Shown here one piece after another: positions 2,093 through 32,370 of a stretch of 64,000 bases of DNA. Source of the stretch: Sipunculus nudus (Eukaryota; Annelida; Sipuncula; Golfingiida; Sipunculidae); NCBI GenBank assembly GCA_026874595.1, contig CM049307.1:75738643-75802642 (forward strand), read 5' to 3'. A program made the translations under genes and the position numbers. The notes beneath the pieces were generated by a model. That model did not search any database, was not told the DNA's origin, and saw only the letters and a list, made by a program, of their open reading frames with translations. Each line of letters opens with the position of its first letter. The stretch's first letter is position 1.

Positions 2093-5000
2093 GTGGATAA
2101 CGGCCAGCGTTTACACTTTCAACATCTGGTTGGGTCATTAAAGAAGCTAGGATATACCTGGGCAGACAGGTAGGACTGTGTTTGTTTGTGTGTGGATTTA
2201 AGTGTATGTATAAAGGTGTAAACTGACATTTTTATCTCAGCTGATTTTCAGTCATGTACATTAGATGCCCCCAGTCATTTTCCTATGTCCCAATTTTGGG
2301 CAGCTTGTGACAAAGTAAAACTGAAAATCAGCCTAGAAAGTTATAATTTATCATTAAAACAATTGGTAATGAAATCATGTGTGTGTGGGGGGGGGAGGAG
2401 GGGAGGCAAAATTGTAATCATAAGTAAGGCAAAATCTTGCCTGCTACTAAGATTGCTGGATATTGTTTTGTATTTAATGATAAATGTGCCATTTATATGT
2501 AGATGGATTTTTTGCAAAGCTTGAAAAGAATCAGTCAAACCAATTCTTCAGAAGCATCAGTGGCAGTAATGAAATTCAATGATCCAGTGTTCTTTTTACT
2601 GTTCACCCACTGCAGTGGGTTCAGAGATTGGGTATAAATTTGATATGATCAGTTAAAATTATAGCAGTCTTGTCAAAGCTAGCCTAGCCATCCATACCGT
2701 AGATCCCTTTTTTATTGCCGCAGCCATAAAATGAAACTTGAAAATCTGGACTTCATTGTAGGTTTATAGTCCTGCCTGTGATTGATAGTGTTCTTCCTGA
2801 TTTCAGGCCCATTACCGATTTTCACATTAAATTCGGGCTTGTGGAAGGGATGAGTACTCGTAAGGGGCAGGTCATCTTCCTGAAGGATATTCTGGATGAG
2901 GCCAAGCAGAAGATGCTGCAGCAGATGGAGGAGAAAGAGAGTGAGTTCAAACCACACCATGGATAACTTACATAAAACTTAAAACATTTATTAACAATAA
3001 AAAGACAAAAAGAAATGTAAATGGATTAAAATATTATGGCACTGAACCATGAAAATTAAAGACACACACTCAGGACATTGGGCCCGGGGTGGCACCAGGA
3101 TACAAAATAAACATAAAAAACTGAGTGCTACTACCCTGTCTCATACTGGCAGTCCCAAACTGAAATGGAACTCTGCAGACTTACATACCTAGATTAAGAA
3201 TCAGATAAGATAGCATAAAAAGAGTGAGGCAGATACCTCCACAAAAAAATCTTTAAAAAATAATAAAGATATAAGAGCACTAACCCATGAAAATTACAAA
3301 AAAAGATTTGCCAGGTTTCAGCTAATTTAGGAGCAAACTTTCAGATCCAGTCGTTTGAGAAATGTGTTATCACAAAGCAAAACTGATATACGTAAAGTTC
3401 CCCTTCAGACCTTTCAAAAATTTTTAAACCTCCTAGAAATGCCCACAAGGCATATTCCTCTTGAATATTTATATGACCTTGTGACCTCATGATTATATCC
3501 ATAGCAACTAAAGTGACCAAGGACCTGGAGGAGGTAGCAGACCAGCTCGGTGTGAGTGCTCTGGTTGTGCAGGACCTAAAAGAATACAGACAGAAAAACT
3601 ACAAGTTTAGCTGGGAGAGGGCGCTGCAGTTCAAGGGAGACACTGGTGTGTTCCTGCAGTACACCCACTCTCGTCTGTGTAGGTAGGTACAAATGCTAAT
3701 ATAAATCTTTTACAGTCATTTACAAACCCCAAGCTTTGTTTGTATCAGAGATGCCAAAACTTCTACTCTTATTAATTTTACAAGCCCCTAGTCTAGTGAA
3801 CTCCTCTCGCAGTGTTTATACACTGCAGTTGTTCCAGATCTCCTTCGTTTTAACCGCTGCTTGGTTTAGCATGTTTTTATTTGGGTTTCAACACTAGGGT
3901 TGGCACAGGGCCAAAAATGAGACCAATGAGAGTGGGGTGTCACAAGTTTAAACTTTGATACACAATGTGCATGGTACCATGTTCTCATTGGTCTGATTAC
4001 AATTCTTTGCTCTGTGCAAGCCCTGGTGGTGGAACCCGGATAAACTTGCTATGCAAACAGCAGTTAAAACAAAGGAGACTTATGTTGACTGCAGAATATA
4101 CTGTGGTTTGCTTCATATTTGCGAGGGTTAAATTTTCACGATACCATCATACAATAACTTACACAGAGTTTATCCATTATTACATGAATTAATTATATCA
4201 ATTAATATTTCTGCAAAATTTTAAAACAAATTGGACAGGAACCAGCTTTGATAGGATGTCCCATTGATAGAGTCTACAGTATGCACAGGGGTAGATGAAA
4301 TACCCTCTGCTGTGTCCTACCCCCATGATACCCATGCCTGTTATAGCAATCTTTTTGATCAGTTATAATATTACTTCAAATTTGCTCTCTTTAAACATAG
4401 GTACCATACATAGAACAATTGTATCTACCTTCCACCAAATATCCTGATTTGGTGTATCAAGGGTGCAGATAAGTATCAAGTCTTAAATAATTTCCTTTTG
4501 TATTGATCGATAATTTGATAGCTTTGCCAACCTTTAATTCAAAAGTCATTTTTTCTAGCCTAGAAGAAACATGTGGTGTGAGTCTAGCTCTGGATTGTGA
4601 CACGTCTTGTTTGAAGGAAGAAGCTGCTCAGAGACTCATCCTTCAGCTCACACAGTAAGTATTTGCTGTGTACAAACCATCAGTGACCTCATGTGGTTTT
4701 CATAACTGTTAAGTGCAGATATATTGTGCTTACAGTCATTATTCCCAGAGAGTGACCTACATGAGTACAGGTTTAATTCATAATTACCTTGTTTGATTTA
4801 ATGAGTGATAACATTTGAACCACTGAGTAATATTCCATGAAATTTTAAATTTGAAATTTTTATACCAATATTTCGGATAAGTTTGAAAACTGGTGACCTG
4901 AATCCTAATCTTCATGGTCCAATAAGCTAAAATAAAAAATAAAATTGTGAACCCCATGACTTTTGAAGCATTGCATATTTTTTCTTCAAATTTGATACAC

Positions 5001-7847
5001 AGGTTTTTTCAACAGTTTTCAGATGAGTTTGAAAAGTAGTGACATTGATCTTCAATTTCAAGGTCAAATTATCAGATAACTATAACTTTTGAACCACTCA
5101 ATCTATTTTCATGAAATTTGATACGCAAATTGTTTCTACGGAAGAGTTATAAACCGTTGACCTTGTCCTTTGTATTCAAGGTCAAATCAGCCAAAATATA
5201 AATTTTTTTAACTGCTCAATATATTTTCATGAAATTTGACTTCCATGTTGTTTCTACCAAGTTATTCGACCTGTTTGAAAATTAGTGACTATGACCTTCA
5301 TCATGGTTAAATCTTCGGGATTCTATGATTTTTGTGAACCACACAACTTTTGAAGTATTCCAAATTTTTACTCAAATTTGGGGATGGGGGTGGGCCTATA
5401 GAGAGAGGAGACACTGCAAAAACAAACTCATTTTATTTTGTTTTATTTTAGCCTTTTTTTCAGCTGTCCTAAAAGAAACTTTTTGAATCAACTGCAAAAG
5501 ATCACAGGCAGTTTCTATCACATGGCAGCCATTAAAATATAACCTCAGATTTGTGAATTAATAATTTCTTGTTTGTTTGAATACCAGTGGATGGTTTGCT
5601 GACATGTTTTTGTTTGCAGGTGGGATGAAGCTCTCCATGACAGCATCACTGACCTAGAACCGTGCCATGTAGTACAGTACCTGCTCAAACTGGGGTAAGC
5701 TCTACCAGTAGATATTTCACTACCTTGCTGAAATGCTTTCATAGAATTTAACAATTCTGTTTTAGGCAGTGATTTGTGAAAGGATATATCTTCTTAAAAG
5801 AGACTTAAAAAATTCTTATTTAATCTGCCATGGTGATATTCAAGCAGAATTTAGTACAGGTGCCCTGTAGACTAGCTTAGCTAATTAGTGGAATATATAT
5901 ATGAAAATCTAATAGCTTTCACCAAGAGGGTATCTGTTCATACCTGTTTGTAAGTTTGTGTGTGTGTGTGTTTGTGTGTGTGTGGTTATTGACTTATTGT
6001 CCACAATGTAACCACCACAATCAGGAATAGAATCATCAAGGAATATTCACACCTCACAATAGCCCCCCCCCCCCCCCCACTTGTGGAGCGTGTTGCCAAA
6101 ATGGTAGGGCGCTGGACTTGTGATCGCAAGGTTGTGGGTTTGCATCCCATTCTGACCGCAGCATGCGCTAAGACTCCTAGCCAAGGTCTTTACCACAAGG
6201 GTATGCTCTCTTGGCCCAGGAATGAATGAGTTCTGTTCTTTGGAGGAAGGCAAATGTAGAACAAATAACCTTCTAGCACCTGATATGGCTGCTTGGGTTG
6301 TATGCCCCCCAGGGAGCTGAGAAAAGCTACAAGAATGAACAGGCCCAAATGACCAGGAAGGCAAAGTGTAAAGTCAGATGATACTGACATTGTTGGTGAT
6401 ATCAGACTATAAACCCCCACCTTTACCTTTACCTTTTGGTGGAGCCTTGCATTCCATAGAATGCAGATTTCTAGATTTCACTTGTTATTGGTCTATCTGT
6501 GTCTGTCATGTCAGGAGCCATGATATCATATACTAATAGATAATACAATTGTAATAGTAATAAAGACTCAAGGTAAAAATGGAAAGTCAGATTGATCATT
6601 GCCTTCATGGACCACCAGTATAAACTGCTTCAGGGCACTAGTGAGGGTTTCTTTTTCATGAATATAAATGAACCACCAATGTCTGATCTAACAGGAGCCA
6701 CTTGGGTTTCTTGCATGACCGACCCCCCTTCATTGCTGTGAAGACTGATTCAAATCATGCTGCTCCGTCTGTATCAGTTACTGAATATACGCAATAAAGA
6801 GATCAAATGCAAATTGTCAGTCAGAACCAGATGGGTTAGGTCTATGTATATGCAAGAGCTTAGTTCATGGAATTCTGTGGTCAGTTCAACAGGAAAATGT
6901 TTGTATATAATACTGGTTGCCGAGGGCCTTCTGACAGAATGTTTCTTACCTTTACTTTTTTATTACTATACAGTTGTATTCTCTGATTTCACAGATTTAT
7001 TATCTGATTTCACAGGCCTGTGGTAATGTCTACCTGTCCATCTGTATGTAGAACTGTATATATGCTCACTGTGTGTCTCTTTATTCTTGTTGCTTAATAT
7101 ACATGTCATTTAACTCTGTATCTCTGTCACACAGATATGAGAATATATCTTCTCCTCATACCTTCAAATTTGTTCTCTTTTTTGTTTTCAGGAGATTAAC
7201 GAACACAGCTCTGGTACAGCTTCAGGTGAAAAATACAGAACCACAAAAAGCTCAGGTAGGGGTTACATTTAGCTCAGGTAGGGGTTACATTTAGCTCAGG
7301 TAGGGGTTACATTTAGCTCAGGTAGGGGTTACATTTAGCTCAGGTAGGGGTTACATTTAGCTCAGGTAGGGGTTACGTTTAGCTCAGGTAGGGGTTACAT
7401 TTAGCTCAGGTAGGGGTTAGATTAAAGTGGATAAAAAATATGAATACATGTCCCATCAGAAATTTATCTAAAAATACATTTCCCATTTTCAGAAAATTAT
7501 CTAAAAATTAAATGTAAAGTACATTAGCTTTTTTTTCTTGTCAAAACCAGGATCACAGGATTGCCAATTACTGAAGGTAGAAGGGATCAAGTGTGTCAAC
7601 TTAATTTAACCTGTTAAATATTGATAATATATGAGATAACCAAATATCCTATATTTTTGCATGGCACACAAGTGAACAACCATATATCTTCAGTAGTTTA
7701 CCATGACATGGTAGTTGTTTTATTTTCTGATTATACCTGTGTATTTATGTTCTCCTGCAGGCACGTCTTCTGTTGTTTCACTGCACACGGGTTGTCATGG
7801 CAACAGGACTCAAGATGATTGGTCTGAAGCCACTGAAGAAGATGTAG
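2093..7847 (+). CDS. RARS2: Arginyl-tRNA synthetase, mitochondrial, C-terminal part (seven exons)
   Basis: Class I synthetase charging mitochondrial tRNA(Arg) with arginine. Coding exons: 2093-2169, 2807-2940, 3505-3682, 4559-4654, 5620-5694, 7192-7255 and 7761-7847 (TAG stop). All introns are GT-AG and the seven lengths sum to 711 nt in one unbroken frame, giving 236 residues. Residues 40-46 (GMSTRKG) occupy the place of the KMSKS-like catalytic loop. [13 protein letters not shown] in exon 3 and the SLEE that follows match the conserved entry to the DALR anticodon-binding domain, which fills the rest and ends LGLKPLKKM-like, close to the vertebrate ending. The catalytic HIGH half lies upstream of the window; human RARS2 is about 578 residues, so roughly 40% is visible. 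Introns carry a family A element, a SINE and a minisatellite over one splice donor. The identification rests on recalled family sequence, not a search. Confidence 0.93.
4790..5420 (+). repeat. Diverged tandem/interspersed repeat, family F, in RARS2 intron
   Basis: A loosely repeated segment of about 110-130 bp built around 'ttttgaaccactcaat', 'ttcatgaaatttgat' and 'gaccttcaa..caaggtcaa' recurs four to five times. It ends in a G-rich stretch (ggggatgggggtgggcc, about 5381). Related sequence occurs in the opposite orientation near 25,560-25,750 and 53,290-53,540, so this is a dispersed family. No coding potential was seen. Confidence 0.6.
6060..6440 (+). mobile_element. tRNA-derived SINE
   Basis: After a run of C (about 6063-6079), the sequence tggtagggcgctggacttg resembles a tRNA A box region. 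About 35 bp later ggtttgcatccc resembles a B box (GGTTCGANNCC). A unique body follows and the element ends in a simple tail of ACCTTT repeats at about 6417-6436. This head-body-tail order is that of a tRNA-derived SINE. It lies in the fifth RARS2 intron in sense orientation. The exact 5' boundary is uncertain because of the C run. Confidence 0.65.
7250..7425 (+). repeat. 22-bp minisatellite made of RARS2 splice donors
   Basis: Eight consecutive 22-bp units, each containing CTCAGGTAGGGGTTACATTT. The first unit spans the last coding bases and 5' splice site of the RARS2 exon at 7192-7255 (GCTCAG|GTAGGG). The repeat therefore gives eight copies of the same donor at 22-bp steps (GT at 7256, 7278, 7300 and so on). 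Use of any donor but the first would add 22n bases, shift the frame and meet a stop in the second unit. Confidence 0.9.
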
Positions 7848-8539
7848 ACTGTGATGCTGACAGATGGACAGTAACAGTACAAGATTCTGTGGCCAGATTT
7901 ATCTTGGAATAAGGAGTATGTTTTTAGGCGTTCTTTTTGCTCAGCTGTCAGCTGTTGCAATGTTGGCTTTGAATACACAAATCACAAGGCATTTATAATG
8001 TGCTGATAGGGCCTACTCTGAGTTGTGATCCTAGTCATGTGGAAAACTGCACTGCAATGGCTCATCCATCTTGCTGCATTTATATCATTGTACAAAGTAA
8101 TATTGACATGAGGGATTTATTAACAACAAAGAAAACCTCTTTGTTAATCCTGTCTTGTTTTTATGATAAAATTACACCAATGACAGTTGAGAATCTTTGG
8201 TGAAAGATTTCTAAGAAAAGCACTTTATTTGTCACTTTTTGCACCTTGACAGTAACATCTTATCATGAACTTTTGAATTTGAGCAATATTAAACCTGAAT
8301 GTTTTAGACGATCCTTAACATTATTGGAAAGTGTAAAAAAAATTTGATCTTTTGAAAGTGTAATGACCATTTTTCTTCATTCTTTTGTACAAACAATTTT
8401 GGATGATTGTCTATAAAAATATACTGTACCTTTTATTAATTACATGATTAAAGAAGGTTACAGAATTATCTGTATACATGTATATCAGTTTGAGACATTG
8501 CTGTTTAATATGAAGATTACTTTTGCAATAAAATTTAAA
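7848..8539 (+). other. RARS2: RARS2 3' untranslated region
   Basis: This region follows the TAG stop and is AT-rich. A canonical AATAAA lies at 8527-8532 in 'ttttgcaataaaattt'. The region ends directly against the terminus of a family B element, eight bases after the signal. No long open frame of its own. Confidence 0.7.
8527..8532 (+). terminator. RARS2: Poly(A) signal AATAAA for RARS2
   Basis: A canonical hexamer about 680 bp after the RARS2 stop codon. It is the best candidate for 3' end formation. The cleavage site itself would fall at or inside the CTAG end of the family B element that begins at 8540. Confidence 0.65.
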
Positions 8540-10914: not shown

Positions 10915-11149
10915 TGGGTCAAGGTCACCCATCTTCGAACTTGACCGAGATTTTATCGATATACATCTTCACTGATGAAATAAAATTCCAACGGTGAATC
11001 CTTTTAGAGATATCCCGCTCACAAGGTAAAAGTTAACAGACGCGGAACGGACGGACGGACACCCGACAGACAGATGGACGGATAGACGGACAGCTTGGGT
11101 GACGACAATAGCCCATCAGCCTATGAGCCGAGGGCTAAAAACGGCTGTA

Positions 11150-16539: not shown

Positions 16540-17245
16540 GGCAAGGTTTTGGACTGTTATTTTTGTTTATCTAGTAGTCAGTGTTTGGACCATGATGTTG
16601 TAAAAACAGCTTTGTTGACTCAATATGGTTACACAGAAGATGGTTTTAGGGGCAGATTAAGAGAATGTAAACCAGAGGACTCAGAAAATCCAGGTCAGTT
16701 TATTGTAAGACTTCAGGGTTATCTAAATAGATGGATAAGGCTATCTCACACAGAGTACTTCTAAGGAACTCTACTTATGAACTCTTCTCATTTCACAGTT
16801 CTCCTTTCACCAAGAAAAAAGAATCATTCAATATGTATCAGTCTGGTGATACAAATTATTACATGCTGAATGTGTGCACACAGATGTATGATGAAAATCG
16901 AAAGCTTTGGGCAGCTTCAGAGAGGTGCAGCAAACATGCGAGTCTGTACTGGAAAGTATTATACAAGTACCATGGACATGTGAAGAACACATGCTGATCA
17001 GAGAGCTTCCTGATATGGTGTCCAGCCGGTGTGGACAGTTTATGATAATGAAGTTAGATCTTAATGCTGAATAATGCATGCTCCCCCCCCCCCCCCCCCC
17101 CCCCCCGCCCCAGGACTAATGAGACCCCCATGGCGTAAGTCTGAAATCGCTAAAGTTCTCAAAGATAAAAATGACATTTGTCTGATATCATGTATCCCTA
17201 AAAAGGATCGGGATATTGATTTTTTTAAACCTGTGTTAACCATGA
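16540..17245 (+). pseudogene. Gag relic of a Gypsy-like LTR retrotransposon
   Basis: The frame at 16,549-16,764 includes LLTQYGYTEDGFRGRLRE followed by PGQFIVRLQGYLNRWI. This is the SCAN-like/Gag pattern 'L..fg.t..gFR..fR...p...e...qFv.RL..yl.kW' of many animal Gypsy-group elements. The frame then breaks; short related frames continue to about 17,050, and a C run of about 22 interrupts what follows. No LTRs, protease or polymerase can be tied to it here. It is a fragment and not expected to be active. Confidence 0.6.
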
Positions 17246-17284: not shown

Positions 17285-20200
17285 CTTATCTGATGTACTA
17301 ACCAGTGGTATGAACTAGGCAACACAGGCTGGGAAGAAATGACTACTGTATGTGCTGAAAGACAATATATATCACGATACAGCATTACTTTCATCCTTTA
17401 AATGATAAATAATAAACTGGTGAAGTGCATTAACAGACCTAAGTCGTTTCCCTGCGATATTCCCTGGTAAGTATGAAGTCTTAAAAGGTTCAAAGACAGT
17501 TTAACGTACATCATAAACTGATACAGTCAAACTTCCTTCATACACTGACCAGTAGTATGAGCTAGGCAACATAGGCTGGGAAGAAATGAGCACTGTATGT
17601 GTTGAAAAACAAATATATCATGATATCATGATGCTTTATTACTTTTGTCCTTGAAATGATTAATATTAAATTGGTGACATGCGTTGACAGACCTAAGTCG
17701 TTTCCCTGCTATATTTCCTGGTAAGTATGAAGGGTCTTAAAAGGTTTCAAACAAAGATAGTTTAACATATATAATAAACATCATAAACTGAGCTAGTCAA
17801 ACTTTTTAACTTTTTAAACATATTTTATGAACATGATGAAGATCAAGAGATGATGTCCATAACCATGTGATCTGATCACATGACCTAAATCATATAATCT
17901 GATCATGTGACTGTGGGTTGATGAGAGCTACGACATGGAATAATTGAATTCTTCAGTCTAAATCACAATACAACATACAGTGTTGAGTTTCTGAAAGAAT
18001 TTTCAAACAAAGTCAAAGATATCCAATAATGTGATCTAATCATGTGAAAATAATCATGTGGTCTGATCATGTGACTAACAAATGAGAGCAAAGAAGTAAT
18101 AAAGATGACAAGGAAAAAGATTTGTGATTTGATCCTATCAGTATCCTAACTGAGAGATACAAAGAACTTTAAAGGCCATTTTGGTAATTTTTCTTGAGGT
18201 TTAGGTAGATCAATAATCCAAAAGATGATAAAGTTTTAAAACATATTCCTGAAAAGGATTCGATGTTGCTTGCATTGTAATGGAAGAATGTCCACCCAAC
18301 CACATTGTCGTGAATTGCAAGCAAATTATATTAAGTAAAATTGGTTAATGTCCATCAAGCAACACAATACCGTAGCCATGTTGGTTACATTCATGTCAGG
18401 ATTTTTATGATCGGTAAGTACAGAGTAGGACTTCAATATTAATACCAATATTTATACATTTTGATTGAAAGGTCTTTGTCCATTAACAAAGTCCTTCTCA
18501 GATGAGGCTTTTTGAAACACCTAAGCCAGTACCCAATTGTATTTTTTTATATGTAGTGAGTGTGTGAAACATGTTATGAATATGGTAAAACATGTTTTGT
18601 GAACATGCTCTCAAGATCACCTCCATAACCATGTGATCTCATCATATGACCATATATAATCATGTGATCTTACCATGTGACAAAGATCATCAGATCATGT
18701 GATGTGAACAGAACTTCAGCTAAGCAACATCTTAACCATGGTCAACGAAAACAAAGAAGAATATACAAGAGAGCTAAGAACATATACACTTTTTCGTCAG
18801 TCCTGTGGCCAAACGTATCTAGATAGGAAAGAAATAGGGACCAATCATATGTATAATTGTAACCAGGCAACAAATCACGGGAAGAAATGAATAGTATAAG
18901 TACTGAAAAACAGGAACATTTATCATGAAAGTATTAAAATTAGTTATTGCATCCTAAGAAAGATATAAAGAATTAAATGGTGATATGCTATCTGACACAT
19001 CTAAGCTAATACCTGGTTGTATTTTCTGGTTAGTATGAAATGTCTTAAAGAGGTTTCAGACTAAGAATCTAAAACTTATTTGATAAACATGATCTAGAGA
19101 TCATGCCCATAATCATGTCATAAGATCACATGACTGTCATGAGAACTTCTATTTTAATCTACTTGTACATATCCAGATGGCACCACAGACTAGGCAGCAA
19201 GCCTGAGTTAAGTTTAATGTGGTAAGCGACTCATAATGAACCTAAGGGGCAGTCACGTGGTTGATGGAGACTTGCTGGAGATTATACGTCTATATTTGTT
19301 GTCATTAAACTTGGATTGTGTGTGTGTGTTGCGACCCATGACAATGAACACTATTGTTTTCTAATGAAACTGAGTGTATAATAAAACATAAGAGCTTTGA
19401 CCCTGAACAGTGTGTGATCAGATAAAAAACTAGACAGAAACAGACATAGAAATAAAAGAATCAGTGATCTGTGGTATGAACGTTTAACTAGACGACACAG
19501 CATGAAAAGTAATGAATACTGTATGTGATGAAGAACAAAACCACAAAGGGCATTAATTAGCACTTCCATCCTTTAAAGCATAAATAATAAATCAGAGAAG
19601 TGAGTTGACAAACTTGAGTCGTTTCCCTGCTATATTTTTGGGTAAGTATGAAGTGTCTTAAAGGTGTTTAAAGAAACATAGTTTAATAATAAATATCACA
19701 GATATAAACTGAGGCAGTCAAACTTATCTGATATACTGACCAGTATGAACTGTTAAACTTGGAGAAATGAGTTGACAAACTTGAGTCGTTTCCCTGCTAT
19801 ATTTTCTGGTAAGTATAAAATGTCTCAAAGGTGTTTAAAAAAACAGTTTAATAATATACATCACAGATAAACTGAGGCAGTCAAACTTATCTGATATACT
19901 GACCAGTATGAACTGTTAAACTTGGAGAAATGAGTTGACAAACTTGAGTCGTTTCCCTGCTATATTTTCTGGTGAGTATGCAATGTCTTAAAGGTGTTTA
20001 AAAAAAACACAGTTTAATAATATATATCACAGATATGAAGGGCAGTCAAACTTATGTGATATACTGACCAGTATGAACTGTTAAACTTGGGAGAAATGAG
20101 TTGACAAACATAAAAGAGGTTTTGAACATATACAATTTAACATATATCATTAACATCATGAACTGATACTTGATATCCTGACCAGTGATATGAACTAAGC

Positions 20201-23200
20201 AACATAGGCTGGGAAGAAATGAGTATTGTATGTGCTGAAAGACAATATACATCACAAATCAGCATCATGATACATTTCATGTGACTGTAGTGTTAGGTAA
20301 CAGTGGCAAGGTAGGAAGATCTTTGTCATTGTTGAAGTTTTGTTATGGTCACTAAGTACACAAGAATACCTTTTTTAGCTTGGGACCTGTACATTCTATG
20401 GTCAGTACCTTAACTAGACAGAAATAAAAGAAAAAGTGACTAATGGTACAAACTTTTAACCAGGCAGCACAGCATGGGAAGATTTGAGTATCCTATGACC
20501 ACACCAATGTGATAAACAAACAATCACATATTCAGTACATCTAACACAACACTAGATCGTTTACTAGCTTATTGCACAAAAGAAAGGAGTTACATACACC
20601 GGCAATATTTCCTGGTAAGTACGAAAGGTCTAAAAGAGGTTTCAAAAGACTCTTTAACGAACATTATAAACTGAGGGAGTCACACTTATCTGATATACTA
20701 ACCAGTATGATTCGTTAACTTGGTGAAGTGAGTTGACAAACTTGAGTCGTTTCCCTGCTATATTTTCTGGTAAGTAAGATAAGGCCTTAAAGAGGTTTCA
20801 AACAAATACAGTTTAATGTATATCATTAACTCATTAATTGATATGGTCCAACTTATTTGATATCCTAACCAGTTATATGAACTAGGCAACATAGACTGGG
20901 AAGAAATGAGTACTGTATGTGCTGAAAGGCAATATATATCACGATACAGCATGATGACTTTCATCCTTTAAATGATGAATAATTAACAGGTGAAGTGCAT
21001 TGACAGATCTGAGTCGTTTCCCTGCGATATTTTTCTGGTAAGTATGACATGTCTTAAAGAGGTTTCAAACAAATACAGTTTAACATATATCATAATATCA
21101 TAAACTGATACAGTCTAACTTATTTGATATGCTGGCCAGTGGTATGAGCTAGGGAACATAGGCTGGGAAAATATGAGTATTGTATCTGCTGAATGACAAT
21201 ATATATCATGATACTGTAACTAATACCGGGCAGTATGCAAGAGCAGCCAGTGATCGGTGGCCCCTCGCAGGTGCGCCAAGCCGGGGTACGCTGCAAGTGG
21301 GCATTTAATGTCAGGTAAAAATTCATTGGAAATAATTAGGAATATTAATAATACCGTGACACCTGTCATGTGACCATAATATTGTGTCACCATCTTAGAT
21401 ATTTCACATGGTTGCATCAGGCTCTTACAGCCTTCTAAATCTGTATTGTATCAGATCCAAATATTTCACCACCCCATGCAAGGCAAGTCAAGTTAAAAAC
21501 TATAAAAGCGCCAAGGTTTCAGGGCAGTTGGGGGAAAAAGTGAGCAGTACTTGATGTATGAACTTTATGGTATACTATTATGGCTGAGATGATGCCATTG
21601 ATGGAGTAAGTCAAGAGAGTGAGGGGTTAGCTGGAACGGTATATGGAGTAAGAATAGAGATCAAGAAGGACTTGTACACTTGAAAGGTTTTTACTATTAT
21701 TGATGTTCATGGTACCACTGAACACATTACTATTGAGCTATTTTGGGATCAATGTTATAAAATGGACATTGAAAATGGAATAAAAATGAAATATTTCCCT
21801 ACACTGGATTTATTCATATTCCAGTCGTGACGTATAGGTAAAAAGAACCACAAGTAGCTCAAACGAGCTGCAACAACAATAACAACTTGTGGTACAGCAG
21901 GGAAATCAGGCTAGGTGGCTACTGCTGGGGCAGTATGCCTACTTGAAAAGCAGGGAGTTGAAAGGTATATAAGGGGCCAATGTCTTGCTAGGGCAGTTCA
22001 CTTCAATTCAGTTCACTTCACTCTTAGGATCTGGATTATCGTTTGATAATTGGGAAACCGTTTGATATTTGGATTACCTTTAGATAACTGGATCACCTTG
22101 TGATATTTGAAATATGTTTCTGGCACCTGGGGCTTGAATTACATATATTTAATTTCAGGAAGTGCAGCTTAGCATCGGCACCTCAGCCTCACCTGACTTA
22201 ACTTTGGTGGAGACTATGCCAGCAGCTTACAGTGCTGGCACAATTTTTGATCATTCAATGTAACTGTTCTCACCATATTAAATCTATTTTTATATAAAGA
22301 GATGTTAAAGTTTATGTATGCTATTAGCTCTGTATGTTAATTGGCATGCTTTGCAATGCCATACTTGGGCTGTTTCAGGGAGTGGAACCCTGATCCATCC
22401 CTTCTAACCACCTCCTGGTGTTACAATACAGCATTATAACTTTCATCCTTTAAATGATAAATAATTAACTGGTGAAGTGCATTGACAGATTTGAGTCGTT
22501 TCCATGCGATATTTGCTGGTAAGTATGAAGAGTCTTAAAGAGGTTTCAAACAAGGACAGTTTAATGTATATCATATACATAAGCTAGAGATAATAATCGT
22601 CGTGAAATCTGATCACACTGGTCACACAAGTGACTATTATCTCATGAAGAAAGGCATATCTCTCAAAATGTTCTTCCTGCTGTTGCAGGCCACAAGTAAT
22701 AATGTCAAACCAACAACTATAACACTGGGGTCATGTTCACAGCTCTCACAACTATGATGAAAAATGACCAATTACATTAATGTTAACTTAAAATGTGCTG
22801 CCCAAGTTCCATCTACTCCATATAGTAGGTGCGAATTACTTTCAAGTTAAGTAACTAGGCCTAGCAAGCAGTTTTCTTGGCACCAGACCAAATGTCACAA
22901 AGAGTCATGACAGCAAGAATGTAATAGACAGGAGAACAAGGAACGTTAAACCTCCAGAGATCTACATCTTTTGCTAGAGCAGGGAGTCAATGTACTCTGG
23001 GTATCTTATCGATATATTCTATTTATATATCTGTAAATTACTGATATTACATGTGTGTTGTTTAAAAATTTAAGAAATGAATTAAAAACTATGAGATATT
23101 ACAACTAAACAGAAGAACATACATCATAAACATCATTAACTAAGACCGTCAAACTTATTTGATATACTGACTATTGGTATGAATTAGGCGATATAGGCTG

Positions 23201-23560
23201 TTAAGAAACGTATACTGTATGTATGGAAAACAAATACATCTTGATAAGGCATTATTACTATTATTACTTCTTCCTATAAGGCTAAATAATAAACAAGTGA
23301 AGTGTGTTGACAGATCTGAGTCGTTTCCCTGCTATATTCTCTGGTAAGTATGAAATGTCTCAAACAGTTTCAAACAAGCACAGTTTAATAATATATATCA
23401 CAGACATAAACTGAGGCAGTCAAACTTATCTGATATATGGACCAGTATAAACTGGTCAACTTGGTGAAGTGAGTTGACAAACTTGAGTCATTTCCCTGCT
23501 ATATTTTCTGGTAAGTATAAATGGTCTTAAAGAAGTTTCAAACGAACACAGTTTAACATA
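17285..23560 (+). repeat. Array of exon-like units encoding LSRFPAIFxG
   Basis: A unit of roughly 160-250 bp recurs with insertions between copies. Its conserved core reads (gac/gat/aac) then Leu-Ser-Arg-Phe-Pro-Ala-Ile-Phe-x-G, directly followed by GTAAGT. Cores lie near 17,440, 17,692, 19,613, 19,783, 19,944, 20,743, 21,007, 22,491, 23,316 and 23,484, with diverged copies at about 19,005 and 20,600. Many cores are preceded by 'ttgacag' or 'ttaacag', giving a possible 30-nt exon between an AG acceptor and a GTAAGT donor. Leucine is written CTA, CTG or TTG; alanine GCT or GCG; phenylalanine TTC or TTT. Flanks share 'ccagtggtatgaactaggcaac' and 'gggaagaaatgag'. No complete gene was found. It may represent the exon upstream of a NACHT-type P-loop, which is inference. 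Confidence 0.6.
21215..22425 (+). mobile_element. Solo LTR of an LTR retrotransposon
   Basis: The 1,211-bp insertion begins TGTAAC and ends GTTACA, the usual TG...CA ends with a short inverted repeat. It is flanked by ATAC on both sides (21,211-21,214 and 22,426-22,429). Neighbouring copies of the host repeat read 'atcacgatacagcatta' uninterrupted, so the empty site is visible in this window. Inside are a TATA-like 'ggtatataagggg' (about 21,963) and AATAAA-like signals. No internal coding region or second LTR remains, so it most likely formed by LTR-LTR recombination. Confidence 0.78.
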
Positions 23561-23915
23561 TATCACAAACATCATAAACTGTGGTCAAACATATTCGATG
23601 AACATGATCCACAGTTCACATTCAGAAGCATACAAACACAAGATGGCTGAGGAGAAGGAGCATCTCATATTCTCCATAAAAGTGAATAGAGTGAAGTAAT
23701 GGTATATATTTATAGATACCAAAGGCTGAGGTCTACTGTGGCCAAGTCTGCTTTGTGAACAGACCAATGAGGTATTGATAATCACTATTATCACTCTAGC
23801 TCAGCTAATGAACGTAACTATGAACTACAGACCAGTAACTGTAAATCCTGTTGAACTTCCTATCAATAGGTAAAGGCGATACTGTTAATGTTCACTGAAG
23901 AGGGGGCAAGCTTTA

Positions 23916-23962
23916 TTCTGTAAACAGAATCATGTATTGTTCATAATAGATGGCCTCGATGA
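23916..23962 (+). CDS. Best-preserved Walker B mini-exon of the array (no stop)
   Basis: A candidate exon lies between 'ttctgtaaacag' and GTAAGT at about 23,963. In one frame it reads HVLFIIDGLDEVM with no stop. The four hydrophobic residues before DGLDE fit a Walker B strand, whose last acidic residue binds magnesium and activates water in STAND ATPases. Its neighbours in the array carry TAA where this copy has GTT. Whether it is spliced into any message is unknown; boundaries are inferred from sequence alone and the start is approximate. Confidence 0.4.
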
Positions 23963-25559
23963 AGTTATGGTAAGTACACAACACAATACAAAAGTAATTT
24001 TTATTATATGAGATGAGAACTTAAAAATGTAGCAGCAGTTTTAAAATAAAATACAGTACTCTGAAAATCCTGTTAATTTCTTGTCAACAGGTAAGGATTT
24101 GCTAGTTATCTCCACTGAAAAGGGAACAATCTTTTCTCTGTAAACAGAACAATATGCTAATAATATTTGATGGGTTGGACGAGTAAGGCGTGGTAAGTAC
24201 ACAGCATAATACAATTTTTTTCCCCTCTGGGCTGAGATATTAAAAATATTATCTAAAAATACAGACCAGTAACTGGTAAATGCAATTGAATTTCCTGTCA
24301 ACTGGTTTTAAGGAGTTACTGTCAATGTACAGTGAAAAGGGGCAATCTGTTGTCTCTAAACAGAACAATTGGCTATTTATATTTGACGGGTTGGACGAAT
24401 AAGGCATGGTAAGAACACAACAAAATACAACACATTTTTTTCAGTGGCTGAGAACTTCCATATGTAATTTTAAAATTAAAGACCAGTACTTTGAAAATCC
24501 TGTTGATCTTTCATCAACATGAGTTGCTCTTAATTTCCTGTAAAAAGGGGGCAATCTGTTTTCTGTAAACAGAACAAAGTGTTATTAATATTTGACGGTC
24601 TTGACGAGTAAAACATGGTAAGTATACAAAAGAAATATTTAACTTTGAAATAAAATATATAACTGGTAAATCCTGTTAAATCCTCTGTCAAAACTTCTAA
24701 AGTTACATGAAACAAGACTTATTAATGTGTTATTAATACTGGATGGTCTGGACGAATAAGTCCTGGTTAAGATAAAGGATTAAAACACTGAAGATAAGAC
24801 AATATTTTCCTTGTAAACAGGCTAAGAAATTAATTATGTTAGAAGGTTATGATGAGTAAGTGAAGGTAAGTAAAAAAAAAAAATTAAAAACAATGAACAA
24901 AATAGTTGGTCTGAGGGAAGACTAGTTTCAAAAATGTAATCCATCTTTTATGGAAACTGTCAACACTTATCAAGCATAAGATGGAAACCTGTTTTCCAGA
25001 TATATGCTTAGAGTACAGTGTACACACTCAGATCAGTGAAACAAGAGACACACAGCAGTCATTAAGTCAGTATCAACACACGAACAGAAGTCAACAAGAA
25101 GTCTAGTATACCATCAGCAGATATGGTATTTATTGTTAAGCTACCAACCTTGAATATAAACTAAGTGAAACCTAGACAACTACCAGTTAAGAAGATTGTA
25201 TCAGAAGACCTTTATATGTGATTATAACATAGTGTATCAACATCCAACATCTTGGACAATTATTATAACATTATGAGTGAAAAACCTTTTCTCTGTGAAC
25301 AAATTTGTGTTCTGATCATTTTCGATGTCCTGGACGAATAAATCATGGTAAGTACATAAAAATATTATTTTAAAATACAGACCTGCAATTTGTAAATCCT
25401 GTCCACAGGTTTAGGAGTTACTGGTAATGTTGGCAGAAAGGATCAACCTTTATTCTGTAAAATAGGTCTAGGTCCTCATCATACTTGATGGGCTGGATGA
25501 GTAAGTCATGGTAAGTAAACCACATAATGTAACAAGAATGAGCCTGTTTCTGCAGTCCC

Positions 25560-25750
25560 AAAAAAAACACAAAGATTCATGTCTCCCCTCTCTAAGAACA
25601 TCCCCATCCCCAAATTTGAGGAAAAAATATATGGACTACAGGTACTTTAAAAGATGTGGAGCTTGAATTTAGGAGATTGGACCTTGAAGATGAAGGTCAA
25701 GCTCAACAGTTTTCAAACTTGTTTGAGATATTGGTAGAATATGTTATTTA
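25560..25750 (-). repeat. Family F repeat fragment
   Basis: Reverse-strand relative of the repeat at 4790-5420. 'catccccatccccaaatttgagg' here is the inverse of 'ctcaaatttggggatggggg' there, followed by a 'gaccttgaagatgaaggtcaa' segment. It interrupts the Walker B array. Confidence 0.5.
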
Positions 25751-27780
25751 AAAATACAGGGCAGGAAGGCCAAAAAAAAGTATGGTTCTCAGGAACTTTT
25801 TTCAGAAACCAGTGCGGGCTGGTGATATTTCATTTTTTACCTTTTCTGTATGGTTAGTTAAAAATGTCATATGATCTGGGAAAAGCATGAACAATACCAG
25901 ACTTTTTTAGCTAAACAGGTAAAAGCTCTACATAACAAAGGAACTCTTATCAAAATTGTATTATTTTATCTTCTTAAAAGATGATAATCGAAATAAATTT
26001 TTTTTATGCGGTTTAAAATTGATGCGGGCATTGCCTAAAAAACATATCTTTTATTTTTTTGCCTATTTGATGAATCTTGTTGAATGTTTATGTAAATCTT
26101 TTTATGTAAACAGGTAAGGGAATTAATTGCAATGTATACTTGTACACTAAAAAGGGGGCAAATCTATTCTCTGTAAGCAAAGAGATTTGTTAAATTTTAG
26201 AGTGTCTAGATGAATAAGTTGTGGTAAGAACATAAAATAAATTAATCAACAAAAATAACTGTTCACCATTTGTGGAATATTGAAAATCCAGACCAGTAAT
26301 TATTAAATTTTGTTGAACTTCACCAGCAGGTACACATGTTTATGACAGTGGTTACAAATGGGTCCAATATACAGACCATGGTAACCTGGCCAGTGTAACA
26401 TTAATGAACAGAAAATTACTAAGTCTTCAGTACTTCTTGTATTGTAGGTTTTACATGTAACTCAGACGTATTACATGGGACCTTGTTCTATAGTGTCATG
26501 TAAGCATCTGCCATATCTGATAAACTGTGGATGCTTTATATTCACAAGGCCGAAATATTGCAACTTCTTCATTTTTTTTACGTTTTGTGAGGGTTTCATT
26601 TTTGCTATCTGTCCAGAACCTATAAAATCTTAGTACAGCAGTATTTATGTATATATATTATAAAATATGAATACCTCACACAGTAGTTCATTCACTTCTA
26701 CCACTATCATTATGTTATGATGTCACTTGTCACGGGAGACCAACAGTATAACCGCATGGTTTACCAAAATTTTAATGCATGTTTGGATGGGCCAAATCTG
26801 AAACCTTGCACATGGAGAGTGGCTGAGATTAATTAACAGTCATATTCTATGTTGGTGGGCCTGAGGGTTTCAATTTTGCGAGTATTTCCAAGATGTGAAT
26901 ATCATGAAATTAAAACCCAAGCAAAACAAGAAGGCAACCTCAGTATACAACACAGCAATTATCATACAGCAAGCCATCCCAAACTTGAAATATGCTCAAG
27001 TGGTTAAAAGACTTGATATTTGCATGAACATTTTAGAGAAAATAATTTTACAAGACTAGATCCAAGTAGATCATGTTGTATTGCATGTGCAAGAGTTCAA
27101 TGACAAAGGTTGCATAAATAATAGCATAAGTGCCATACTGACATCAATAAGATACTGATACCAAAACCAGTAAATCAAACATCAGGGAGAGAAGAATGCT
27201 TCACTGTATTCCCCAAAGATGACTGATTCAAACATTTTTAGCGGGACTTGGATTGGGAGGTAAGTACAAGTATCATACCACTGGTACAGAACAGTACAGT
27301 CTAGTACAGTACCAATTCAAAATAGACAACAAAGTGTGCATTGATGTTTTGTGGATTAATTAATTGTTCATCAAAGCCCTGGTAGAGAGAGAAATATAGA
27401 AAAAGACACATACACCACTTTTATTTATTTGGATCATGAATCTGGGAAAAAGTCATGATATGCAAGGTATTTGCAAAACAAAACAATGTCTGGAAGGAAA
27501 CTGCTATTACAGATATTCTAGAAATGCCTATATATGTACCTTAAAATCTGATCAAGTAGAGCTTAATGAATCATCTTAATATGATGTAAAGTTCACAAAT
27601 TGTGATAATAGTTTTGTTGGAAACTGCGAGATTCTATCTAAGGCTAAATACAGACAAGAGAGCCAAGGTAAGTATGGCCTCTAGCTAAAATTGAAACGTA
27701 TAGAAAAATTAATCCTGCGACAATCCCAGACAATCCTGAGAGGAAAAGTAAAAGATCTCCCAGTTATGATATTATCCTTT
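25751..27780. other. AT-rich spacer within the NTPase-motif array
   Basis: Apart from a diverged DGLDE-type unit at about 26,100-26,240 and an exon-like donor (gccaaggtaagt, about 27,662), nothing recognisable is seen. There is no open frame of note. Confidence 0.4.
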
Positions 27781-28699
27781 GAACATACCAATGTCCTAAT
27801 TATTGTAGACGGACTAGATGAGTAAGTCATGGTAAGTACAATATAACAGCAATAAACAAAAAGAGTTATTCATTGGGGATGGGGGGAGTTTTTAATATTG
27901 AACCCAGCTGTTATGGGAAAATTTAACAATGGGCAAGCTTAAAACGGAAGATGGAAACCTATTATCCTTATTCTGAGAAAGAAAAGGGAGACAACCCCCC
28001 ACCCCCACCTCTCTATGAACAGACCACTTAGCAACCTTCATTAATCTTTGATGGATTGGATGAATGCATAATGGTAACTACACATCATATAAGACAAAAA
28101 AAATTAGTTTTAAGGAGGAAAGAGTATTTATAAAAATGTAACTTTATAATATTGGCCTGTATCTGGTAAATTATGTCATTTGATTGTCAACAGGGAAAGG
28201 AGTACCTGGTAATGTACAAAGAAAAGGTGGCAACTTTTTCTCTGTGAACAGACCAGTGTTCTGTTCATTTTGGATGGTCTAGATGAATAAATCATGGTAA
28301 AAAGACAACAAAATAATAAATTTCAAGTCAGAAGGTTTGTGAATAAACATGGTAACCATGCAACGGCAAAGAAAATGTGGCCATGATGCTCAGCTGAATT
28401 TGGCATATTACTAAGCACATGAATATAGGTCACAGTGACTTAAGCTGAGGTCTCCCTGAAAATTTTAAGACAACCTATCTGCATGTAAAGTTTAAACTTC
28501 TAAAATTATACAAAGGTTAGCACCGATGCCCTGTGAAGGTTACTTCTGAACCTTTTTCTATGCCCACACTCAGAAAATATAGATCTTTTTCAATAACGCA
28601 CCAAGGGCAGAGACCTTGATTTGTATGACTGTGTGGGATATAACATAGCAGACATAAAGGTCAACAAATGATTTATAGTGAAGGGTAACTAAAAAGAAA

Positions 28700-31325
28700 C
28701 TTGCACAAAAACATATTTGGAAGGTTATAATGTTTAATTTGCATTAGACCAGCTGAGGCCTATCTATGTACTATGACATATAGAAGAGGGACTGGCATTA
28801 ACACTGATATTTTTAGAAGTTTATTATGAACAGATTAGAATGAGTAAAAGAACTTGCTCAGGCCTATTTATGTACTATAACACACAGATTAAGGGACTGG
28901 CATTAACATTGATATTTTTAGAAGGTTATGATGAATACATTAGGGTAAGTAGGATTTGTGGCCATATATGTACTATAAGACACAGACTAAGGGCCTGGTG
29001 TTAACACTCATATTTTTAGAAGGTTATGATGAATTATTTAAGGTAAGTAGAAGGATTTGTGGAGGCCATATATGTAATCTAACACACACAGTAAGGGACT
29101 GGCGTTAACACTCATATTTTTAGAAGGTTATGATGAATTATTTAAGGTAAGTAGAAGGATTTGTGGAGGCCATATATGTAATCTAACACACACAGTAAGG
29201 GACTGGCGTTAACACTCATATTTTTAGAAGGTTATGATGAATAAATTAAGGTAAGTAGGATTTGTGGAGGCCATATATATAATCTAACACACACAGTAAG
29301 GGACTGGTGTTAACACTCATATTTTTGGAAGGTTATGATGAATAAATTAGGGCAAGTGAAAGAACTTGCTCAGGCCTATCAATGAACTATAACATACATA
29401 TTAAGGGACTGGCGTTAACACTCATATTTTTAGAAGGTTATGATGAATAAATTAGGGTAAGTAGGATTTGTGGAGGCCATATATGTAATCTAACACACAC
29501 AGTAAGGGACTGGAGTTAACACTGACATTTTTGGAAGGTTATGATAAATAAATTAGGGTAAGTGGAAGAACTTGCTCAGGCCTATCAATGAACTATAACA
29601 TACATATTAAGGGACTGGCGTTAACACTCATATTTTTAGAAGGTTATGATGAATTATTTAGGGTAAGTAGAATGATTTGTGGAGGCCATATATGTTATCT
29701 AACACACATAGTTAAGGATTGGTTAACACTGACATTTTTGGAAGGTTATGATAAATAAATTAGGGTAAGTGAAAGAACTTGCTCAGGCCTATCAATGAAC
29801 TATAACATACATATAAAGGGACTGGCGTTAACACTCATATTTTTAGAAGGTTATGATGAATAAATTAGGGTAAGTAGGATTTGTGGAGGCCGAATATGTA
29901 ATCTAACACACATACTAGGGACTGGTGTTAACACTCATAGTTTTAGAAGGTTATGATGAATTATTTAAGGTAAGTAGAAGGATTTGTGGAGGCCATATAT
30001 GTAATCTAACACACATAGTAAAGGACTGGTGTTAACACTGACATTTTTGGAAGGTTATGATAAATAAATTAGGGTAAGTGAAAGAACTTGCTCAGGCCTA
30101 TCAATGAACTATAACATACATATTAAGGGACTGGCATTAACACTCATATTTTTAGAAGGTTATGATGAATAAATTAGGGTAAGTAAGATTGATGGAGGCC
30201 ATATATGTAATCTAACACACACAGTAAGGGACTGGCATTAACACTCATATTTTTAGAAGGTTATGATGAATAAATTAAGGTAAGTAGGATTTGTGGAGGC
30301 CATATATGTAATCAAATACACATAGTAAAGGACTGGTGTTAACACTGACATTTTTGGAAGGTTATGATAAATAAATTAGGGTAAGTGAAAGAACTTGCTC
30401 AGGCCTATCAATGAACTATAACATACATATAAAGGGACTGGCGTTAACACTCATATTTTTAGAAGGTTATGATGAATAAATTAGGGTAAGTAGGATTCGT
30501 GGAGGCCATATATGTAATCTAACACACATAGTAAAGGACTGGTGTTAACACTGACATTTTTGGAAGGTTATGATAAATAAATTAGGGTAAGTGAAAGAAC
30601 TTGCTCAGGCCTATCAATGAACTATAACATACATATTAAGGGACTGGCATTAACACTCATATTTTTAGAAGGTTATGATGAATAAATTAGGGTAAGTAAG
30701 ATTTGTGGAGGCCATATATGTAATCTAACACACACAGTAAGGGACTGGCATTAACACTCATATTTTTAGAAGGTTATGATGAATAAATTAAGGTAAGTAG
30801 GATTTGTGGAGGCCATATATGTAATCAAACACACATAGTAAAGGACTGGTGTTAACACTGACATTTTTGGAAGGTTATGATAAATAAATTAGGGTAAGTG
30901 AAAGAACTTGCTCAGGCCTATCAATGAACTATAACATACATATAAAGGGACTGGTGTTAACACTCATATTTTTAGAAGGTTATGATGAATAAATTAGGGT
31001 AAGTAGGATTCGTGGAGGCCATATATGTAATCTAACACACATAGTAAAGGACTGGTGTTAACACTGACATTTTTGGAAGGTTATGATAAATAAATTAGGG
31101 TAAGTGAAAGAACTTGCTCAGGCCTATCAATGAACTATAACATACATATTAAGGGACTGGTGTTAACACTCATATTTTTAGAAGGTTATGATGAATTATT
31201 TAGGGTAAGTAGAATGATTTGTGGAGGCCATATATGTAATCTAACACACATAGTAAAGGACTGGTGTTAACACTCATATTTTTAGAAGGTTATGATGAAT
31301 TATTTAGGTTAAGTAGAAGGATTTA
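28700..31325 (+). repeat. Higher-order array of exon-like units encoding TLIFLEGYDE
   Basis: About 26 copies of a unit of roughly 100-150 bp. The core 'acactcatatttttagaagg' then 'ttatgatgaa' reads T-L-I-F-L-E-G-Y-D-E, a Walker B-like motif. It is followed by TAA, then 'attagg' or a variant and GTAAGT. Two subtypes occur: one ends GYDE and is followed by 'gtaagtaggatttgtggagg'; the other has 'acatttttgg' for the strand, ends GYDK and is followed by 'gtaagtgaaagaacttgctc'. Larger blocks repeat at about 510 bp (compare about 30,113 and 30,625). Very high identity shows recent expansion. Units start with 'aagggactggcgtta', readable as KGLAL in the same frame. Confidence 0.75.
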
Positions 31326-31454: not shown

Positions 31455-31640
31455 AAAAACTGACAATATTATAGGTTACCTGGTCTCAAGATACAGGATC
31501 CGGTAAAACAACTCTTGTCAACTAAGTATGGTAAGTATCTTTGGAAGATTATGATTAAAATGACAATATTAAGGGTCATGTGGTCACAAGGTATTGGCTC
31601 GGGTAAAATCACTCTGGTAAACTAGGTGAGGTAAGTACAT
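31455..31640 (+). repeat. Two exon-like units encoding a Walker A (P-loop) motif
   Basis: Two adjacent copies read VTWSQDTGSGKTTLVN-stop (about 31,474-31,524) and VMWSQGIGSGKITLVN-stop (about 31,574-31,625). GxGSGK(T) is the phosphate-binding loop of P-loop NTPases. Between copies the glycine, serine, leucine and valine codons differ at third positions (GGA TCC GGT against GGC TCG GGT; CTT GTC against CTG GTA). The stops differ too (TAA and TAG) but sit at the same place. Each is followed five bases later by GTAAGT. 'acaatatta' precedes both. Confidence 0.65.
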
Positions 31641-32079: not shown

Positions 32080-32370
32080 TATGAATATCAATTGATTTGT
32101 CTTGAAGGGTACGACGAATAAAGTCTCTGTAAGTAAAATAATTAACACAATATTGTGATTTCAATTGGGAAGAGGTGAAATAATATCAATTACATTTTCC
32201 TAAAGGACAAGATGAGTTATTCTTAGTTATAATATGAAGAGTGAGGTTTTCATAAGAAATTGATAATAATGTTAAATTTCATGTAGTAAACATACAAGAC
32301 GCCTACTCTCATGCATGGAAACACTAATATATCTTGAAGGCTATGATGAGTAAGTGTTGGTAAGTAAAAT
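32080..32370 (+). repeat. Two further LEGYDE-type units
   Basis: Diverged copies at about 32,103 (LEGYDE then TAA, with 'gtaagtaaaa' downstream) and 32,325 (TLIYLEGYDE then TAA, 'gtgttg', GTAAGT). Another lies among the DGLDE units at about 24,840 (MLEGYDE, TAA). They differ from the 28.7-31.3 kb array at third codon positions and in flanks, so they are older duplicates. Confidence 0.5.

Follow-up and report, generated by a model that had tools for sequence, protein, structure and literature searches.

We show that a 64,000-nucleotide stretch of the Sipunculus nudus genome (contig CM049307.1 of assembly GCA_026874595.1; C2:75738643-75802642 in the 1.43 Gb, 153-contig assembly that we searched; hereafter the window) carries arrays of mini-exon-like units that together encode three hallmark motifs of the NACHT domain of NLR-type (STAND) receptors. 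All arrays lie on the + strand between about 17.4 and 32.5 kb and fall into four families, most of whose units close at a strong 5' splice site: a (P-A-I-F motif, 12 units), b (Walker B, DGLDE, 11 units), c (Walker B, EGYDE/K, 27 units) and d (Walker A, GSGK[T/I]TLVN, two units). The units were duplicated in tandem, and after duplication purifying selection acted on their amino acids as far as the stop codon and not past it. We propose, with a probability of roughly 0.4, that the locus is made up of tiny, tandemly arrayed exons, each holding one NACHT signature motif, which would serve as alternative last coding exons of truncated NACHT-motif products and would now be partly decaying.

Motif units and their splice sites

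The four families were recognised by reading the sequence ahead of GGTAAGT donors, with no motif demanded. Forty-five of the 46 GGTAAGT copies on the + strand of the window fall within 16-34 kb, and the - strand of the whole window has one. Of those 45, 42 lie behind a unit of one of the four families; the exceptions are at 18413, 27259 and 27667. With ^ for the junction, the consensus at the donor reads ..LSRFPAIFS^G in family a, ..LLIFDGLDE-stop-NNN-NTG^ in b, ..LIFLEGYDE-stop/LF/YI..^ in c and ..GSGK[T/I]TLVN-stop..^ in d. The units are listed below, with the last base of the DE codons given for family b and c0.

17437..23510, + strand: array a, 12 units LSRFPAIFS^G-gtaagt, NACHT profile positions 192-203
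23928..23969, + strand: b1 (DE ends at 23963), 42-nt mini-exon NHVLFIIDGLDEVM, stop-free, gtaagt donor
24148..24192, + strand: b2 (24183), 45-nt mini-exon NNMLIIFDGLDE-TAA, gtaagt donor
24364..24408, + strand: b3 (24399), NNWLFIFDGLDE-TAA, gtaaga donor
24573..24617, + strand: b4 (24608), NKVLLIFDGLDE-TAA, gtaagt donor
24721..24765, + strand: b5 (24756), INVLLILDGLDE-TAA, gttaag donor, without acceptor
24821..24865, + strand: c0 (24856), AKKLIMLEGYDE-TAA, b-type acceptor tgtaaacag, gtaagt donor
25303..25347, + strand: b6 (25338), ICVLIIFDVLDE-TAA, G to V, without acceptor AG, gtaagt donor
25466..25510, + strand: b7 (25501), V-stop-VLIILDGLDE-TAA, the second codon an in-frame TAG, gtaagt donor
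26179..26223, + strand: b8 (26214), decayed, internal stop, ECLDE-TAA, gtaaga donor
27787..27831, + strand: b9 (27822), TNVLIIVDGLDE-TAA, gtaagt donor, without acceptor AG
28029..28073, + strand: b10 (28064), QPSLIFDGLDECIM, DE without a stop after it, gtaact donor, acceptor shifted
28252..28296, + strand: b11 (28287), TSVLFILDGLDE-TAA, gtaaaa donor
28787..31316, + strand: array c, 24 tandem units of 98-105 bp, LTLIFLEGYDE/K, then TAA (17), TTA (6) or TAC (1), then the donor
31490..31530, + strand: d1, Walker A, DTGSGKTTLVN-TAA, gtaagt donor
31590..31630, + strand: d2, Walker A, GIGSGKITLVN-TAG, gtaagt donor
32083..32128, + strand: cA, old diverged EYQLICLEGYDE-TAA, gtaagt donor
32315..32359, + strand: cB, old diverged METLIYLEGYDE-TAA, gtaagt donor

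The combination of motif and donor is nearly confined to this locus. A motif followed by GTAAGT 5-12 bases on has 24 matches in the genome, 23 of them here (control, 3 and 2), and DGLDE followed by TAA has nine, of which seven are here (reversed-pattern control, 1 and 3). Queried with the DNA of b, c and d units, a similarity tool that ignores very common words and scores its best candidates only returns this locus alone, and among the 66 matches listed for the 20-mers of b2, b3 and b4 no second locus carries them.

To identify the motifs, we made a NACHT profile from 20 sampled loci of this genome, whose Walker B reads DGLDE, DGYDE, DGMDE, DGFDE or (two of 20) EGYDE, followed by F, Y or L, and scored the units against it without gaps, with 5000 shuffles each. 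Families b and c fall at positions 98-109 (tandem c at 99-111), the Walker B; d at 18-28, the Walker A; and a at 192-203, a stretch reading E-L-x-x-L-S-x-x-P-A-I/V-L. The unit score was reached by no shuffle for a, b2, b9, c0 and d1, by one for a second a unit, by three each for d2 and tandem c, and by four for cB. A further decayed a relative near 18515-18560 (LSQYPIVFF) takes the same register as a, its score being reached by 25 of the 5000 shuffles. This placement led us to drop two other identities for array a, a sensor-1 motif (ITSRF..P) and the strand that precedes Walker A, linked to d in phase. An hmmsearch of 5843 open frames gave weak values only (best, b1 at E = 0.003), and its top eight were all array units; in Pfam, the 40-aa frame of b1 matches NACHT at E = 0.013, below the curated cut-off, and the 46-aa frame of b9 is unmatched.

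The genome itself is rich in NACHT domains. A Pfam NACHT search in which 98 of 417 candidates were scored gave a list of 99 rows; 97 of these lack an internal stop, and most cover the whole domain in a single open frame. The candidate search is biased towards unbroken domains, and genes of small exons would escape it. By hand count, contig C17 holds 55 of the 99 rows.

Nine of the 11 units of family b read DGLDE exactly (b6 has DVLDE and b8 ECLDE), with c0 interspersed among them, and nine have TAA immediately after DE, b1 continuing as DEVM and b10 as DECIM. In ten units a GT lies 6 bases past the codon that follows DE, and in b1 it adjoins VM directly; the donor is GTAAG in eight of the 11 and GTAAGT in six. 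An acceptor AG stands at the exon start of six b units (five aaacag or gaacag, and aatag in b7) and of c0, which makes the exon from acceptor to donor 45 nt long in b2-b4, b7, b11 and c0 and 42 nt in b1. Damage is visible in b6, b7 (in-frame TAG), b8 (internal stop as well as ECLDE) and b10 (shifted start). A preliminary description of this DNA had counted about eleven DGLDE-type units, most with TAA right after DE, and both statements hold; of its GTAAGT-type donor 6-7 bases on, the position stands and the exact sequence applies to just the six units, and its 'aaacag' acceptors are lost or shifted in five. The units do lie in the interval it gave, 23880..28320, and the phenomenon spans 17.4-32.5 kb and two further motifs.

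Among six b units, upstream flanks diverge by an average of 33% (about 67% identity) and can be aligned over most of their length, which indicates that exon and flank were duplicated as units and that constraint acted after duplication. For b5, b6, b9 and b10, likeness to the flanks of several other b units is weaker or undetectable. A profile of upstream flanks, holding no exon letters, finds eight stretches at E <= 0.012, all eight of which lead into a unit; it was built from six of them, b5 and the decayed b8 not being in the build. Among weaker matches, 25277 precedes b6, and a motif is absent at 26291, at 36924 and at one match on the - strand. At 24039-24150 and equivalent places, several b units are preceded by a palindromic CCTGTCAACAGG-like element that looks like the fusion of an acceptor with a donor, CAG^GTAAG, and CTGTAAACAG stands at the acceptor.

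In family a, the exons end at 17466, 17720, 19028, 19641, 19808, 19971, 20614, 20769, 21037, 22518, 23343 and 23510; those at 19028 and 20614 are decayed and that at 21037 is frame-shifted. Families b and c share an architecture, since c0 has the EGYDE motif within b-type splice sites. Array c is a genuine tandem repeat with a period of about 101/105 bp, and looks like a recent satellite-like expansion. Across all 27 c units, the codon behind the motif is TAA in 20, TTA in six and TAC in one, and seven read GYDK. If the cacacacag acceptor is used, the introns between tandem c units measure 43-50 nt. Introns of that length are as a rule too short for splicing in series, so splicing of neighbouring c units in series is disfavoured. 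Two worn traces of EGYDE units were also seen, one near 32440 and another at 31536-31558, directly behind the d1 donor (a weak profile match, E = 2.1).

Codon constraint as far as the stop

Copies of family b differ mainly at third codon positions, as the preliminary description had said. Pairwise diversity at codon positions 1, 2 and 3 is 0.216, 0.045 and 0.643, against 0.66 in the flanks (8 codons, 11 units); the third-position excess has a Mann-Whitney p of 3.3e-5 (9 codons, all 11 units), and only one of 200,000 column permutations matches it (ten units, b8 dropped for its internal stop). Again without b8, the proportion of differing sites is 0.97 for synonymous and 0.11 for non-synonymous sites, and a codon model (ten units, 9 codons) gives a non-synonymous to synonymous ratio, omega, of 0.028, with a log-likelihood of -170.5 against -204.2 at a ratio of 1; this omega is rough, as IQ-TREE warns of more parameters than sites. 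In sliding windows the codon pattern is limited to the exon, and the third-position pattern ceases behind the stop. These results strongly support the earlier view that the protein was under selection and that the DNA was not simply copied, and the suggested link to NACHT/STAND proteins is supported by the profile and Pfam matches above.

An edge-proportional partition fit on six b units gives relative rates of 0.09 for position 2, 0.64 for position 1, 0.77 for the upstream flank, 1.48 for the downstream flank and 2.37 for position 3. Third positions outpace the flanks in this fit (twice the log-likelihood difference, 11.4; six units); because the downstream flank stands at 1.48 and its alignment is noisy, we claim merely that they are at least as fast as the flanks. 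The pattern recurs in the other Walker families. In five chosen c units, diversity at positions 1, 2 and 3 is 0.178, 0.078 and 0.50 (p = 0.0014), and d1 and d2 differ at six of ten third positions and at one of 20 first and second positions (p = 0.002), with 21 differences in the 50 nt upstream, compared ungapped.

The stop and the donor are themselves conserved. In ten b units (b1 excluded), diversity in the three stop columns is 0.0, 0.2 and 0.2 and in the donor GTAA 0.0, 0.0, 0.2 and 0.0; the 165 flank columns have a mean of 0.70 and a minimum of 0.36, and none of 163 and 162 flank windows is as conserved as the stop and the donor, respectively. In family d the stop differs (TAA and TAG) yet remains a stop. 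We also considered that TAA might be part of an older GAG-TAAGT donor, and dropped this double-donor reading: GAA in seven of the 11 b units kills the GT, yet five of those seven (b3, b5, b6, b8 and b11) retain TAA. Because codon constraint persisted while stop-sharing copies diverged, we infer that ending translation there was part of the function or at least compatible with it. The inference would lose force if stops had been gained convergently or gene conversion had been patchy.

Two further candidates for what is conserved were rejected. In-frame ATG codons with an open path as far as the motif, as a micropeptide would require, occur in four of the 11 b units only (b2, b3, b6 and b9), at unequal distances, and are not a common feature. 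For a conserved RNA structure in six b units, RNAalifold gives -5.8 kcal/mol with a covariation term of +0.11 and a double change in one of 17 pairs. At gathering scores, nothing in the window matches Rfam.

Proposed alternative last coding exons and competing explanations

The preliminary description had offered three options, namely alternative exons, poison exons and the remains of many NTPase genes. Alternative exons fit best, provided that they are stop-carrying last coding exons. The units would formerly have served, and some may still serve, as alternative last coding exons of a predicted, unannotated + strand transcript, a single unit being spliced into each transcript and translation stopping right after the motif. 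An intron in the 3' untranslated region would then begin about 6 bases past the stop. Since the stop lies merely about 6 bases ahead of the donor, nonsense-mediated decay need not follow, and would not necessarily be triggered if this intron is the last. The products would be truncated chains with a terminal Walker A or Walker B peptide, which might be NLR decoys or dominant negatives; alternatively, such splicing might lower the output of a full form made with the stop-free units (b1, b10 and the TTA and TAC copies of c). Several units are decaying at present.

A number of observations weigh against this proposal. The motifs run along the + strand as P, B, B', A, B', unlike the A, B, P of a NACHT gene; no single reading frame joins them as A, B, P at the locus, and stops close the frames. 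The acceptor AG is absent or shifted in b5, b6, b8, b9 and b10, and a stop precedes the donor in none of the 12 a units. One of the 27 c-family matches above threshold in whole-unit profiles, at 28762-28859, has lost both motif and donor. Recent c copies carry substitutions of E by K and of I by T, and constraint is invisible in the youngest units. Neither the NACHT profile nor a hexamer scan recognised constant exons of a host gene in the window or 20 kb to either side; in 8-34 kb the profile gave nothing else convincing besides the units, and among the 45 segments with the best hexamer scores just one, the repetitive-looking 11036-11146, lies on the + strand of that interval outside the arrays. 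With host exons missing, the order reversed and acceptors lost, the explanation by gene remains stays close.

That explanation, which we regard as a real if lesser possibility, holds that the locus descends from tandem multi-exon NACHT genes with small exons, constrained while alive, which then lost most exons and left those with the strongest motifs recognisable, some amplified in place. Different losses in each copy would yield the odd motif order, and at one place, d at 31.5 kb and then the old c units at 32.1-32.4 kb, the order of the protein is correct. The decayed units (19028, 20614, 21037, 26214, 28762-28859 and the worn EGYDE near 32440) speak for it, as does the abundance of NACHT domains in the genome, and so do the recent c copies, whose two main types differ by two synonymous and three non-synonymous changes (hand count) and look unconstrained. 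It does not easily explain a stop that is common to most b copies diverged under codon constraint and swapped for another stop in d; across the families a stop follows the motif in nine of 11 b, 20 of 27 c and both d units. The listed NACHT rows, mostly single-frame, offer no small-exon ancestor, in a search that favours unbroken domains, and three donors, each directly behind a motif, would have to be a coincidence.

A bolder extension of our proposal seems unlikely to us: that the locus forms one library of NACHT-motif exons closed by stops (Walker A and Walker B, with the P-motif array adjacent), selected as peptides, whose short or truncated products bind and restrain the many NLRs of the genome. 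Were it true, the library would be a dedicated regulator family made of the receptors' own catalytic motifs.

Improbable, too, are plain poison exons, stop cassettes whose inclusion lowers the expression of an NLR-like gene and whose peptide is irrelevant. The conserved b stop and donor suit them, and the few units that lack a stop might yield the productive form, but poison exons leave the codon-position pattern and an omega of about 0.03 ahead of the stop unneeded and unexplained; decay from a stop about 6 nt from the donor would require a further junction downstream, and no productive host gene was recognised in the scans described above.

Quite improbable is a regulator acting as RNA, with the units copying, in sense orientation, the best-conserved coding stretches of NLRs and serving as a source or sponge of small RNAs. 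Plant microRNAs and phased small interfering RNAs (phasiRNAs) do act on sites that encode NLR motifs, and here, too, only hallmark motifs are represented, with diverse third positions. Between the ten b units and the 20 sampled NACHT loci, mismatches per 24 positions are 5.2 from target to unit against 6.0 for synonym-shuffled sequences (p = 0.009) and 4.9 against 5.5 from unit to target (p = 0.048; 2000 shuffles each). The closest sampled NACHT is nevertheless 4-7 mismatches per 24 away from the b units, short of near-perfect complementarity, the 20-mers of b2, b3 and b4 recur at no other locus among the matches listed, and the conserved stop and donor would be left unexplained. That the arrays are satellite repeats or chance sequences merely resembling exons is scarcely credible, for all that family c is truly tandem and its young copies look unconstrained, given a codon-position pattern in three families, profile matches that beat shuffles and 23 of 24 genome-wide motif-plus-donor matches at one locus.

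Codon selection ahead of a conserved stop, in many diverged 45-nt copies, suggests that the truncated motif itself was long useful. If the units are still expressed, pieces of the receptors' own NTPase motifs would control a large animal NLR repertoire; if they are a relic, the locus would record a NACHT domain broken into amplified motif exons. Searches of an open-access library listed no title or abstract opening on a similar array, which is weak evidence of novelty.

Surroundings of the arrays and comparison with known systems

The arrays sit between two convergent genes, one on the + strand ending at about 7849 and one on the - strand ending near 34.2 kb. From their motifs, we take the exons of the former (including ...GLKPLKKM) to belong to a mitochondrial-type arginyl-tRNA synthetase, RARS2-like; one 53-aa exon matches Pfam tRNA-synt_1d at E = 6e-4, under its cut-off. 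The latter is a putative gene, judged from open frames alone, and the four of its stretches tried in Pfam gave no match above cut-off. An open frame ahead of array a resembles a gag-like region of a retroelement.

3522-7849, + strand: last exons of the RARS2-like gene, from motifs and Pfam
16540-16760, + strand: open frame with VKTALLTQYGYTEDGFRGRLRECKPEDSENPGQFIVRLQGYLNRW, read from the letters

Two repeats were seen outside the arrays. A 22-bp repeat of eight copies, at 7249-7423, starts at the donor of one RARS2-like exon and reiterates the AGCTCAGGTAGGGG junction, and a 280-bp tandem repeat of nearly identical consensus stands at 714-1744 and again at 47920-49312, about 47 kb apart.

Set against known systems, the units match the Walker A, Walker B (DGLDE, EGYDE) and P-A-I/V-L motifs of the NACHT domain of NLR-type receptors, whereas the locus has no complete domain and holds the motifs in separate mini-units, out of order, with a stop behind most b, c and d units. 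With mutually exclusive exon arrays of the Dscam type it shares tandem homologous exons with their own splice sites, constraint on the protein and, in family c, introns apparently too short for serial splicing; it differs in the stop that most copies carry, in a host gene that was not recognised and in the six b units examined, which show no covarying structure. Poison exons, which work through nonsense-mediated decay, are likewise short cassettes with a stop and a strong donor, but here there are many diverged copies, codon constraint before the stop and a stop only about 6 nt from the junction. Plant microRNA and phasiRNA loci that target NLRs resemble the arrays only in involving conserved motif-coding stretches of NLRs, while the arrays are in the sense strand, conserve splice sites and stops, and gave no exact targets for the three units whose 20-mers were checked.

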